In this document: piece by piece, positions 3,913 through 11,626 of the stretch
How the letters are laid out: each line of letters starts with the position of its first letter
How positions within the stretch are numbered: the first letter of the stretch is position 1
NCBI GenBank assembly: GCA_002288455.1
Contig: NEUS01000030.1
Span: 1 to 36,003 of the forward strand
Reading direction: 5' to 3'
Source of the DNA: Opitutia bacterium Tous-C1TDCM
Lineage (GTDB): Bacteria; Verrucomicrobiota; Verrucomicrobiia; Opitutales; Opitutaceae
Length of the DNA stretch: 36,003 bases
Translations under genes and position numbers: made by a program
The notes under the pieces: model-generated
What the model saw: only the letters and a program-made list of their open reading frames with translations
What the model was told of the DNA's origin: nothing
Databases searched by the model: none

Positions 3913-4494
3913 GTGCGGTTTCGTCGCGCATTTCCCGTCGTTCGCAGCGTTTTCGGCCTGCTGGCCGCGCTCTTCGCGCCGACGCTGGCCGCCGCCCCGC
4001 AGCTGGAATTGCCGCCGGCGCTGGAATCGAGCCGCCTCATCACGAACGAGGAACTGCTGGCCTCCGCGCAAAAGCTGCTGCCGCGCGGGGCGTTTCTCGG
4101 TCCGCTGCTCGACGCCCGTTACGCCGTCATCAAGCACGACTGGCTCGTGAAGCGATTCATCCCGTCGTACCGCCGCGCCGTCGCGTCGCTCCAGGCCGAG
4201 CTCAAGCACGCCGGCGATGAAAGCGCGGATTGCGACGACTTCGGCATGTTCCTCCGCCACATGGCCGCGCTGTCCGGCATGCTCGCCGGCGGCGCCCAGC
4301 CCTCCGCGGCGCAGGTCATCGTGTTTCAGGAAAATTCGTTCTCCGGCGTCGGCCGCACCCGCGAACGCCACGCCGTCGGCCTCTTCCTCACCGAACGCGG
4401 CTGGCAGGTCCTCGAACCGCAGAACGCCGACAAACTCGTCCCGCTGGAATCCTACGTCAACCGGACCGGCATCCAGTACATCAGTTTCCACTGA
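3913..4494 (+). CDS. Exported protein of unknown function with Cys-His-Glu (transglutaminase/papain-like) pattern
   Basis: 193 aa from a GTG start. Residues 1-28 form a signal peptide: MRFRR, a hydrophobic stretch with GLLAALFAP, then cleavage near TLAAA. The mature part is mostly helical. In the C-terminal half, DCDDFGMFLRHMAAL (Cys107), RHAVGLFLTERGW (His153) and VLEPQN (Glu168/Asn171) occur in the order and spacing of the catalytic Cys, His and acid of bacterial transglutaminase-like cysteine peptidases (C93-like) and related lectin-tail domains. That is a motif-level inference; I do not recognise the family. It is 32 nt upstream of a small exported repeat protein on the same strand, probably co-transcribed. 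An operator-like palindrome precedes it. Confidence 0.7.
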   Translation: MRFRRAFPVVRSVFGLLAALFAPTLAAAPQLELPPALESSRLITNEELLASAQKLLPRGAFLGPLLDARYAVIKHDWLVKRFIPSYRRAVASLQAELKHAGDESADCDDFGMFLRHMAALSGMLAGGAQPSAAQVIVFQENSFSGVGRTRERHAVGLFLTERGWQVLEPQNADKLVPLESYVNRTGIQYISFH

Positions 4495-4526: not shown

Positions 4527-4889
4527 ATGAATACGAAATCCGTCCTCCTCGCCGCGCTGTCTCTCGGAGCCGTCGCGTTTGCCCAGGCCCAATCCGCCGC
4601 CCCCGCCGTCAAAGCCACGCCGTCCGCCCAGGCCGCCGCCGAAATCCCGCAGAAACTCGACAAGTTCATGGTCACGGGCTCCATGGCCGAACCGAAAGCC
4701 GAACCCGAGAAACTCGAAAAATTCATGGTCACCGGCTCGATGGCCGAGCCCCAGGGCAAAGCCGAGGAATTGCCGAAGTTCATGGTCACCGGCTCCCTCG
4801 CGGAACCCACCGGGGAGACCGCCAAACTCGAGAAGTTCATGGTCACCGGCTCCATGGCCGCCCCGCGCCAGGCGCAGGCCAAACGCTGA
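4527..4889 (+). CDS. Small exported protein with four FMVTGS repeats (TonB-box-like)
   Basis: 120 aa. MNTKSVLLAALSLGAVAFA (1-19) is a signal peptide with an AFA cleavage site, followed by an Ala-rich spacer. From residue 43 to 113 come four repeats of exactly 19 residues with the consensus KLEKFMVTGSMAEP. FMVTGS sits at 47, 66, 85 and 104. The repeat core closely resembles LEVFTVTGS at residues 44-52 of the TonB receptor in this window, and the TonB box of known receptors (for example DTLVVTA in BtuB). There is no cysteine, no globular domain and no transmembrane helix after the signal. I do not recognise a family. A strong terminator ends the transcript 29 nt downstream; the upstream partner is the exported Cys-His protein. 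A role as TonB ligand or decoy, or as a repeated peptide precursor, is inference. Confidence 0.8.
   Translation: MNTKSVLLAALSLGAVAFAQAQSAAPAVKATPSAQAAAEIPQKLDKFMVTGSMAEPKAEPEKLEKFMVTGSMAEPQGKAEELPKFMVTGSLAEPTGETAKLEKFMVTGSMAAPRQAQAKR
4653..4865 (+). repeat. In-frame 57-bp tandem repeat, 3.7 copies
   Basis: Coding repeat of the small exported protein, with a 57-nt period starting at 4653, 4710, 4767 and 4824. The core TTCATGGTCAC is identical at DNA level in all four, while the 3' part of each unit (coding xxAEPE-type linkers) varies. Preservation of the core codons against variable linkers suggests selection on the peptide. Confidence 0.85.
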
Positions 4890-4917
4890 ACCGCGTCCGC
4901 CGCTTCTTCCGCTTCAA

Positions 4918-4948
4918 CCCCGGCCCGCAAGGCCGGGGTTTTTGTTTT
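4918..4948 (+). terminator. Rho-independent terminator after the FMVTGS-repeat gene
   Basis: Perfect 8-bp GC stem CCCCGGCC / GGCCGGGG (4918-4925 and 4931-4938) with loop CGCAA, followed by TTTTTGTTTT. The U-tract is on the plus strand only, so it stops transcription from 4527-4889 and not from the minus-strand genes that converge on it. Confidence 0.92.
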
Positions 4949-8270: not shown

Positions 8271-11200
8271 TCAGAACCGCTTGGAAACTTCCATCGTGAA
8301 CTGGCGGCCGCGCGGATTGGCGGAACCGGAAACGTAGCCGTACTGCTCGTCCGCCAATTCGGGGTCGGAGTCGAAGACGTTGTTGATGCCGCCGCGGAGC
8401 GTCACGCCCCGCAGCCATTTCCGGCTGTCGCCGCGCTCGAAACGGTACGAGATCCAGGCGTTGTGCCGAATGGTCGGCTCGACGCGCAGGAGGTAGCGGG
8501 TGATGCCGTTGTCGTTGAAGACCTGGATATAGCTGGGTTGGCCGAGGGCATTGTAAATCGGCAGCGTCGTCGCGGCCGACGTGTCGACGAAGGAACCGAA
8601 GTAGCTCGCGAACCAACCGGCGGAAACCGGCCCCTGGCGCCACGACACGGAGGCGTTGGCGCGCCACTTGGTGCGGCCGTTGCGGCCGAGCTCGTCCAGC
8701 ACCGGCGACCGTTCGTCCGCCTTCGACCGGCGCAGGACGTAGTGCGTCGCCTCGCCATTGAACGTGAACTGCCCGAAACGCGTGCGCGGGGCGCGCCACT
8801 GCACGCCGAACTCGTAGCCTTGGATGTCGCGACCGCTGAGGTTGAGGTAATCGTCGACCACGCTCTCCACCTCGCCGACCGGCGCCCGGCGGCTGTTGTT
8901 GTTCGGCTGGCGCGCATTGTAGGCGGCGAACGCCGCGCGGTCCGTCGCCGCGACCGGCTTGCGCGTGATCTTCGTCGAACCCTTGTACGCGGCGGTGCCG
9001 GAACCGAGGTCGATCTGGTCGATCGGCGTGCCCTTCGCGAGTTCGGCCTGCGTCGCGAGGTCGAGCAGCACTTCGTCGCGGTCGATCGCGGCGCCGGCGC
9101 CTACATTTTCGATGACGCTGTTCTGGTTCAGCTTGAAGTAATCGAACGACACGGAGAGCCCGCGCACCTTCGGCACTTCGAGCACGAAGCCGGCGACCCA
9201 GGTCTTCGCCTCCTCGGGCTGCAGGTTCTGGTTGCCCTGGCGGAACACGGTCCGCTGCGCCGTGCCGTCGGACGGCAACGCGGTGACTTCGAAACGGTAC
9301 GGATCGTCGGCGCCGATCTGGCGGCGCAGCGGCGTGATGTTGGTCTGCACCAGATTCGGGGCGCGGAACGATTCCGCCGCCGAGCCGCGCAGCTTCAGCC
9401 ACGACGCCGGTTTCCAGACGAGGCTGGCCTTCGGCTTCGTCGTCTGGCCGTGGATCGAGAAATGCTCGAAGCGGCCCGCGAGCGTGAGCTCCAGCGCCTC
9501 GACCAGCGGCACGCGGCGGTCGCGCGTCACGAACGGCAGCGCCGTCTCGACGTACGCCGCGTAGATCGTCTGGTCCGCGTCGATCGGCACGTTGGAACTG
9601 AGCGCGAGGAAGTCGTTGTCGCCTTCGCGCAGGAACGGAAACTCGCTGCCCGAACCCGGGGGATTCAAGCCCACGTAGGCGGCGCGTTTGTCGGAGTACG
9701 TCTCGTAGCGCACCTCCGTGCCCGCGGCCACGCCGATGTCGCCGGCGGTGAAGAAGCGGCCGATGCGGCCGTTGAACTTCGCGTCCCACATGAAGAGATT
9801 CGTCCGGCCGAAACGGTCTTCGTCGGCATAGAGCGGATCCAGTACCGCGGCCGGATTGTCGAAGGCCTTGTCCACCGTGATCTGGTTGTTCTGGATCTTG
9901 AACGTGACCGGGAAGGGATTGAAGGCCGTCGCATCCGTGCGGGCCAGCGCGCGCCGCAGCACGGACTCGCGCACCTGGAAATGTTCGAACTCGTGCGACT
10001 GCGCGCCGGACGCCACGACCGCGGATTCCCATTCCCACGTCTTGCCGAGCTTGCCGCGCAGGCCGCCGAGCAGGCGCCACGCGTAGCTCTTCACTTCGGT
10101 CACGCGCGGCTTGAAACCGCCGCCCGTGTTCTGGCCGGGCGCGATGCCGGTCCAGAGGGATACATCGGCCGGCGCGCCCGTCAGCCGCGGCGTGCCGTCG
10201 GCATTGGGCTGGCCCGTCGGATGGTAGAAGCGCACGCCGAACGGATTGTAGGGATTGGCCGCCGGCAGGTAGATGCCCTGGTCGTCCGTGTTCTTGAAGT
10301 TCACCGGCTCGCGGCCCGTGCGGCTGTACGCGCGGTAGAAGAGCAGGTCGCCGAAAAGGTGCAGGTCGTTCCGCAGCGGCCGGTCGATGAAGGTCGCGAA
10401 CTGGATGCGGTCCGTCGCGGGCACGAGCATCTTCCACTTGTTCCAGTTCGAGAAGGCCGCGACCTCCGGATTGTCGATGTTGGCCGAAGGCGCCGTCTGC
10501 TTGAACATCACCCCCGCCGCCGAGGGCCAGAGGTAGAACATGCCGTTGGCCGCCATCGTCGCCACGCCCGCCGGCGGCGTCGTGCTCGTGGTGATACCGG
10601 TGTTGCCGGCCGGCCGCGAGCCGACGAAGGTGCGCGCGTCGGCCTGGATAAAGCCGCGCTGCCACTGGCCCCATTGGTTGACGGCGTTGGCGTTGCGGAA
10701 ATCGTTGTCGAGGGCGAAGACCCCGCCCGTCGTCGAGGCCGGATCCGGCAACGGCAGGCCGTTCCACGGCGCCGGCAGCGCGCGGCTGGCGCGGAAATCG
10801 GAATTCCTGGAGAAATCGCGGTCGTGCGCCGCGAGCGCGTCGCGGTGGAAATAGTCGAGCGACACGGAGACGTGCAGCGGTCCCCGCTTGAAGCCCTCGA
10901 AGGCGGTGACGTTGAACTCGTTCGCCCCGCCGTGCTGCGTCATCGAGCCCTTCACGGTTACACCGCGGCCGATGTAGTTGCGGGAAACGAGATTGTTGAT
11001 CACGCCGGCGGCGGCATCGGATCCGTAGATCGCGGACGCGCCGTCGCGCAGGATCTCGACGCGGTCGACCATCGCGCGGGGGATGGTGTTGATGTTGACG
11101 GCGAGCGAAGGCACGCCGTTCTCCGCCATCGAGACCGGATGCGGCGCCATGCGCCGGCCGTTGAGCAACGTGAGCGTGCTGCCGGAGCCGATGCCGCGGA

Positions 11201-11543
11201 GGTCGACCGAGGCGACATCGCCGCGGGCGAGCTGCGGGCCGTTGTTGATCTCGGTGATCGCCGAGATCTCGGCGGCGCCGATGGTGTCGAACAATTCCGC
11301 CATCGTCGCGGCCCCGCGCGCCTCGAGTTCGGCGCGCTCGATCACGGAAACCGGCAGCGCGGTCTCGGCATCGGTGCGGCGGATGTTCGAGCCGGTGACC
11401 GTAAACACTTCAAGCTGCAGCGGCGCCTCCGCGCCCGGCGCCGGCGGCGGCGCGGCCGGCTTCGGCGGCACAGGGGTTTGCGCCGCAGCGACGGCGGCCA
11501 GGGTCGACAGGGCTAAGAAACGGGCGGAAGTTTTGATTCGCAT
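8271..11543 (-). CDS. TonB-dependent outer-membrane receptor, probably for glycerophosphodiesters
   Basis: 1090 aa. A signal peptide (1-20, LALSTLAAVAA then AQ) and a Pro/Ala linker lead to the TonB-box/plug start LEVFTVTGSNIRR (44-56). The plug domain shows VDLRGIGSGSTLTLLNGRR, VDRVEILRDGASAIYGSDA and AAGVINNLVSRN. A long 22-strand barrel follows with late landmarks SFRAPNL, LQPEEAKTW, GINNVFD and the terminal KRF, where the last Phe is the outer-membrane insertion signal. It moves a substrate across the outer membrane with TonB/ExbBD energy. Being first in an operon with two exported glycerophosphodiesterases, GlpT and GlpQ points to glycerophosphodiesters or deacylated phospholipids as substrate (inference). 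The ATG at 11543 gives the signal peptide; the open frame upstream adds nothing recognisable. No FecR-type signalling domain. Confidence 0.93.
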   Translation of the reverse strand: MRIKTSARFLALSTLAAVAAAQTPVPPKPAAPPPAPGAEAPLQLEVFTVTGSNIRRTDAETALPVSVIERAELEARGAATMAELFDTIGAAEISAITEINNGPQLARGDVASVDLRGIGSGSTLTLLNGRRMAPHPVSMAENGVPSLAVNINTIPRAMVDRVEILRDGASAIYGSDAAAGVINNLVSRNYIGRGVTVKGSMTQHGGANEFNVTAFEGFKRGPLHVSVSLDYFHRDALAAHDRDFSRNSDFRASRALPAPWNGLPLPDPASTTGGVFALDNDFRNANAVNQWGQWQRGFIQADARTFVGSRPAGNTGITTSTTPPAGVATMAANGMFYLWPSAAGVMFKQTAPSANIDNPEVAAFSNWNKWKMLVPATDRIQFATFIDRPLRNDLHLFGDLLFYRAYSRTGREPVNFKNTDDQGIYLPAANPYNPFGVRFYHPTGQPNADGTPRLTGAPADVSLWTGIAPGQNTGGGFKPRVTEVKSYAWRLLGGLRGKLGKTWEWESAVVASGAQSHEFEHFQVRESVLRRALARTDATAFNPFPVTFKIQNNQITVDKAFDNPAAVLDPLYADEDRFGRTNLFMWDAKFNGRIGRFFTAGDIGVAAGTEVRYETYSDKRAAYVGLNPPGSGSEFPFLREGDNDFLALSSNVPIDADQTIYAAYVETALPFVTRDRRVPLVEALELTLAGRFEHFSIHGQTTKPKASLVWKPASWLKLRGSAAESFRAPNLVQTNITPLRRQIGADDPYRFEVTALPSDGTAQRTVFRQGNQNLQPEEAKTWVAGFVLEVPKVRGLSVSFDYFKLNQNSVIENVGAGAAIDRDEVLLDLATQAELAKGTPIDQIDLGSGTAAYKGSTKITRKPVAATDRAAFAAYNARQPNNNSRRAPVGEVESVVDDYLNLSGRDIQGYEFGVQWRAPRTRFGQFTFNGEATHYVLRRSKADERSPVLDELGRNGRTKWRANASVSWRQGPVSAGWFASYFGSFVDTSAATTLPIYNALGQPSYIQVFNDNGITRYLLRVEPTIRHNAWISYRFERGDSRKWLRGVTLRGGINNVFDSDPELADEQYGYVSGSANPRGRQFTMEVSKRF

Positions 11544-11626
11544 GGTCTGGGAACCAAAGGGCTGCGCTGGCGTCCGGGGGGCGGCGAGGAAAAACATCCG
11601 CGGCATATTTATTACCCCGCTTTGCC

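Follow-up and report, generated by a model that had tools for sequence, protein, structure and literature searches.

Bacteria of the Opitutaceae carry a conserved two-gene unit, in which a predicted exported papain-like cysteine protease is followed by a small, predicted exported protein that repeats, up to five times, the short tag by which nutrient receptors are gripped by the energy-transmitting protein TonB. The unit may be an undescribed way to control TonB-powered uptake, with TonB binding and proteolysis both inferred from sequence and predicted structure. The pair was found in the window, i.e. the whole stretch of 36,003 nucleotides that was analyzed, which belongs to the 4.15-Mb draft genome (85.8% complete; here G000) of Opitutia bacterium Tous-C1TDCM. 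The original prediction described a small exported protein made of four tandem TonB-box-like repeats at positions 4527-4889, and this observation proved to be correct. Its interpretation, that such a protein could bind TonB or imitate receptor N-termini for another partner, was only partly supported, as the repeats are not plain copies of receptor boxes and the protein is tied to a protease that the original prediction had missed and that any account must include.

The repeat protein and its upstream partner

We first asked whether the repeats are real. Positions 4527-4889 (+) encode a 120-residue protein consisting of a signal peptide (4527-4592, about residues 1-22, judged by inspection), an Ala/Pro-rich lead and four units of the form [KE]L[DEP]KFMVTGS[ML]A. 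The Phe residues lie at 47, 66, 85 and 104, an exact 19-residue period, and the KFMVTGS cores are encoded at 4662-4682, 4719-4739, 4776-4796 and 4833-4853 (all +). Tandem Repeats Finder detected a 57-bp array of 3.8 copies with 73% DNA match, indicating that the repeats are not a fresh duplication but are old at the DNA level and kept in protein. A stem-loop with a 10-bp stem, a 5-nt loop and a T-run follows directly at 4916-4940 (+) and is a predicted intrinsic terminator closing the two-gene unit (z -2.67; one such site was found against 1.9 expected by chance in the scan, so it is the position that carries the weight). Thirty-two bases upstream of the repeat gene ends a same-strand gene, 3913-4494 (+), that encodes a 193-residue exported protein. 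Both this gene and the terminator had been overlooked in the original prediction.

Next, we determined whether the protein occurs in other genomes, since its absence from all of them had been named beforehand as a refutation; it was not absent. The nearest copies are 94% (genome G014) and 61% (genome G007) identical. A profile of the three sequences found the protein in 12 of 252 genomes of the taxonomic family (mostly drafts, one genome per species), while the two other genomes that were hit had receptor-sized frames. A thirteenth (G028) was found as the neighbor of the protease; its three units are divergent (LEAFVITET, LRPLVAVGS, LPKILVTGS) and only the last is canonical (LPKILVTGSRL), an intermediate between receptor-type and tandem-type boxes. 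The 13 genomes belong to five genera and the copy number is 3-5; most genomes of the family do without the pair. A hydrophobic N-terminus is kept in all homologs and the linkers diverge, but the core holds: in 53 units from 12 genomes we counted L 52, K 51, F/I/V 53, M/L 53, V 52, T 52, G 53 and S 51. Within-gene comparisons of the V-T-G-S codons of these units showed 180 synonymous against 13 non-synonymous differences. For the whole gene, dN/dS for G000/G014 was 0.038/0.417 (about 0.09), and three other genome pairs gave 0.19, 0.05 and 0.33, indicating purifying selection.

In all 13 genomes the preceding gene on the same strand is an ortholog of 3913-4494. The gap, measured at 11 of these loci and at two single-box loci (see below), is 28-81 bp, and together with the terminator in the window this places the two genes, as inferred from sequence, in the same transcription unit. 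Among the eleven neighborhoods compared with the window, the other genes differ between genera and only the pair is common to all. Four further genomes (G169, G123, G089 and G174) have a diverged protease followed by an exported protein of 78-110 residues with one box near the C-terminus (LGRFEVTGSLLPH, LERFEVTGSLIKK, LDKFVVTGSLMNH, LEKFVVTGSLIPM). Thus, every genome with a close protease ortholog has an exported box protein as the next gene on the same strand, 13 of 13 in the tandem form and 4 of 4 in the single-box form. The single-box pairs of G169, G089 and G174 share a longer neighborhood, with an ECF-type sigma factor, an exported 261-285 aa protein with an NGCH motif and a response regulator upstream of the protease (identities judged by eye). 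In another genome, G100, the protease is a pseudogene (TAG stop, catalytic His to Ser, 3' end missing), the box gene is absent and a glycosyltransferase gene follows directly: the two genes decayed together.

We also looked for relatives beyond this set. For the more distant protease homologs no box neighbor was found; some of these homologs occur as tandem gene pairs whose second copy has lost the catalytic Cys and the EPQ motif (it reads ..DP..). Order-wide and phylum-wide searches found only weak, unpaired protease homologs and no pair outside the family, viral contigs gave none, and hits in Comamonadaceae were short and weak. A peptide methionine sulfoxide reductase (msrA-like) gene lies immediately upstream of the pair in the g2 genomes (G027, G028, G029) and in G100, and within about 3 kb in g47 (G227, G228), where it carries a signal peptide. 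As the repeats are rich in Met, we considered a link between the two; however, G029, with msrA adjacent, has Leu in all repeats, so the link is not required.

Comparison with TonB boxes and the predicted protease fold

To test whether the repeats correspond to TonB boxes, we compared them with the receptors of the same bacteria. The receptor encoded in the window (8271-11606, -), which is not part of the pair, has LEVFTVTGS, as the original prediction had noted; it lies at residues 65-73 (11388-11414, -), and this is the point where the curated NCBIfam receptor models begin to align. Forty-one receptor boxes, sampled from the strongest Plug hits of four of these genomes, read [K/x]-L-E-[A/K]-F-[V/T/E]-V-T-G-S (L 36/41, E 28, A or K 29, F 35, V/T/E 39, V 41, T 39, G 40, S 36, then N/R 30 and I 27), and the repeats share L-E-K-F-x-V-T-G-S with them. 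The motif is therefore the receptor TonB-box motif of this bacterial family. When we searched the 252 genomes with a profile of the four single-box proteins, the only small protein retrieved besides these was the window's own repeat protein; the rest were receptor N-termini from across the family, matched through the box columns alone. The repeat protein itself gave no Plug or barrel match, so it is not a TonB-dependent receptor.

In contrast to the single-box proteins, which have the receptor residue (E or V) at x, the tandem repeats differ consistently from receptor boxes. Position x is Met/Leu in 53/53 repeats against 1/41 receptors, the residue after GS is Leu/Met in 52/53 against 3/41, and the residue before Phe is Lys in 51/53 against 13/41. 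Repeat units within a gene are not independent, so a statistical test on these counts overstates the evidence, but the Met/Leu pattern holds in all 12 genes. Moreover, a DNA pattern for KF[M/L]VTG hit 27 times in the 13 genomes, every time in the box gene and never in a receptor. Thus the repeats obey a rule of their own that TonB binding alone does not demand: the single form looks like a receptor box, whereas the tandem form has added constraints, as expected if the strand must fit a second partner. TonB C-terminal domains are plentiful in all seven genomes examined, and in G027, G028, G007, G245 and G169 there are proteins of 400-840 residues with three or more of them in tandem in one chain, which are possible multivalent partners for tandem boxes.

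We then asked what the upstream gene encodes. Pfam, NCBIfam, PADLOC and PHROGs gave no usable family for either protein; weak PHROGs and NCBIfam hits on the acidic repeat protein of G027 look compositional. A structure model from 11 sequences was poor (pLDDT 65.6), but 22 sequences raised it to 89.5. With this model the only Foldseek hits below 0.001, five in number, were MOA (E 4e-6 to 1e-5), the fungal chimerolectin, and VIA-align gave the protease domains of PSL1a and MOA Z 12.6-14 over about 130 residues at 2.5-3.0 Å, with LapG next at 7.0. Cys107 (D-C-D; codon 4231-4233), His153 (codon 4369-4371) and the Glu and Gln of Glu168-Pro-Gln170 (codons 4414-4422; all +) are invariant in 22 homologs, and MOA uses Cys215, His257, Glu274 and Gln276 (PMC8244254); the catalytic role of the residues here is inferred. 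MOA also has an oxyanion Trp208 and two metal sites; in the sequence alignment no Trp is conserved at the counterpart position seven residues before Cys. Two other genes, in G099 and G123, pass the Pfam threshold for Agglutinin_C (PF18021) without a lectin domain being evident, and these align by profile with our protein with Cys, His and EPQ in register (hhalign probability 86%, E 4.7e-6). The gene in G000 does not reach this threshold, and therefore we call it MOA-type by predicted fold and active site, not a member of PF18021. Transglutaminase, LapG and ExoD readings were considered and dropped; the structural match to LapG was only Z 6.4-7.0, and one of 18 members matched Peptidase_C93 (PF06035) at E 0.069, with none significant.

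Possible roles of the pair

Our favored account, to which we give a probability of about 0.4, is a two-gene periplasmic unit. In this view, the second gene makes a soluble, mostly unstructured protein carrying one to five strands of the TonB-box type, which would pair with the C-terminal domain of TonB as receptor boxes do, so that the protein would act as a soluble TonB ligand (a competitor or multivalent tether) for the many TonB-dependent receptors of the cell. The protease would recognize the same extended strand, cut the box protein and so set how much of it is present or in what lengths. The pair, its conservation, the motif, the signal peptides (judged by eye), the predicted fold and the conservation of the catalytic residues come directly from the analysis. 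In contrast, binding of the box protein to TonB is an inference, which we consider somewhat more likely than not; that the protease is active, meets the box protein and acts on it is inferred at roughly even odds; and a net effect on TonB traffic is more tentative still. A soluble box can compete, since a free TonB-box pentapeptide blocks TonB action in E. coli (PMC5413942, citing Tuckman and Osburne 1992). Against this account stand the repeats' own rule, by which TonB-box mimicry is plausible but not the whole constraint, and the absence of the pair from most genomes of the family. A more far-reaching version, in which the number of boxes sets the strength of a multivalent competitor that is dialed down by its own protease, giving the cell a general throttle on TonB-dependent uptake, is unlikely on present evidence but not excluded.

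The main rival leaves TonB out. The protease would read the TonB boxes of receptors and trim their N-terminal tails to uncouple them, and the box protein would be its decoy substrate or inhibitor, holding the active site with receptor-like strands until the protease is needed. This would explain why a protease gene and a receptor-box mimic are inseparable and why the repeats carry extra fixed residues, and small genetically linked inhibitors are a recurrent theme of bacterial papain-like proteases (staphopain/staphostatin, SpeB/Spi, Bacteroides C10; PMC3462683). In addition, the S1 pocket of MOA takes a basic residue, Arg, through Glu210 (PMC8244254), and Glu103, four residues before the catalytic Cys here, is nearly invariant. 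However, receptor boxes mostly lack the Lys and almost never show the Met/Leu pattern, so that decoy and proposed target differ, the box protein has no sign of a folded inhibitor domain, and receptor trimming by such a protease has not been reported in the papers found; we consider this reading doubtful. Both accounts explain the fixed pairing, and the extra fixed residues favor direct contact with the protease in either case.

Two other readings seem weaker. The box protein could be a precursor that the protease cuts at each repeat (for example after the conserved Lys), releasing several copies of a short peptide that acts outside the cell, with the likeness to TonB boxes reflecting descent from a receptor N-terminus or serving peptide uptake. 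The near-regular period with variable copy number, the Lys before Phe, the near-identical cores between variable linkers in the tandem genes and the protease in the same unit would fit this, but the four single-box proteins and the degenerate G028 protein fit poorly, no exporter or modifying enzyme accompanies all the loci, and the box keeps receptor features that a free peptide would not need, making this reading improbable. Least likely is a functionless leftover, a receptor gene truncated after its TonB box and expanded by tandem duplication: although the layout of signal peptide, linker and box equals a receptor N-terminus, this is contradicted by the dN/dS values, the core conservation over five genera and the fixed pairing with a protease in unrelated contexts.

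Relation to known systems

What is new here is the pairing and the tandem-box design, rather than a proven function; our search, limited to open-access papers, found no description of such a pair. Cells with 60 to 150 receptors share far fewer TonB proteins, and how access to TonB is shared out is a long-standing question. A natural soluble protein made of tandem TonB boxes, inseparable from a protease, would be a direct handle on it, as it predicts a built-in competitor and its off-switch. The pair also extends the MOA-type protease fold, known from fungal defense lectins, to a conserved bacterial role in the cell envelope, as far as can be inferred from the prediction. If the rival holds, a protease that edits receptor TonB boxes would be equally unexpected.

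The box protein shares with TonB-dependent receptors (BtuB, FhuA and, here, those of the Opitutaceae) a signal peptide, a flexible lead and L-E-K/A-F-x-V-T-G-S in the place of the box, but it lacks plug and barrel, repeats the box 3-5 times in the tandem form, with Met/Leu at x and Leu/Met after GS, and has a co-encoded protease. B-group colicins and klebicin C (PMC11658791) are likewise soluble non-receptor proteins with a TonB box; those, however, are large secreted toxins that use the box for entry into another cell, whereas here an exported protein of 78-142 aa has no toxin domain that we could find, and in the tandem form the box is repeated. The protease shares with MOA and PSL1a (Pfam Agglutinin_C / Lectin_C_term) the predicted papain-like fold and Cys-His-Glu plus Gln two residues after Glu, but it is bacterial and exported, is only 14-20% identical, and consists of a signal peptide and protease domain only, without the N-terminal beta-trefoil lectin domain. 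LapG is also a periplasmic papain/transglutaminase-like protease governed by a partner, LapD, but the partner here is not a membrane receptor. In the staphopain/staphostatin and Bacteroides C10 protease/inhibitor operons a papain-like protease is also encoded with a small protein, yet staphostatins are folded lipocalin-like domains, while here we observed low-complexity repeats of a receptor motif. In PopC/Oar/PopD of Myxococcus xanthus (PMC6434023) a protease is tied to a TonB system and to a partner, and there it is the receptor Oar, not the partner, that bears the box.
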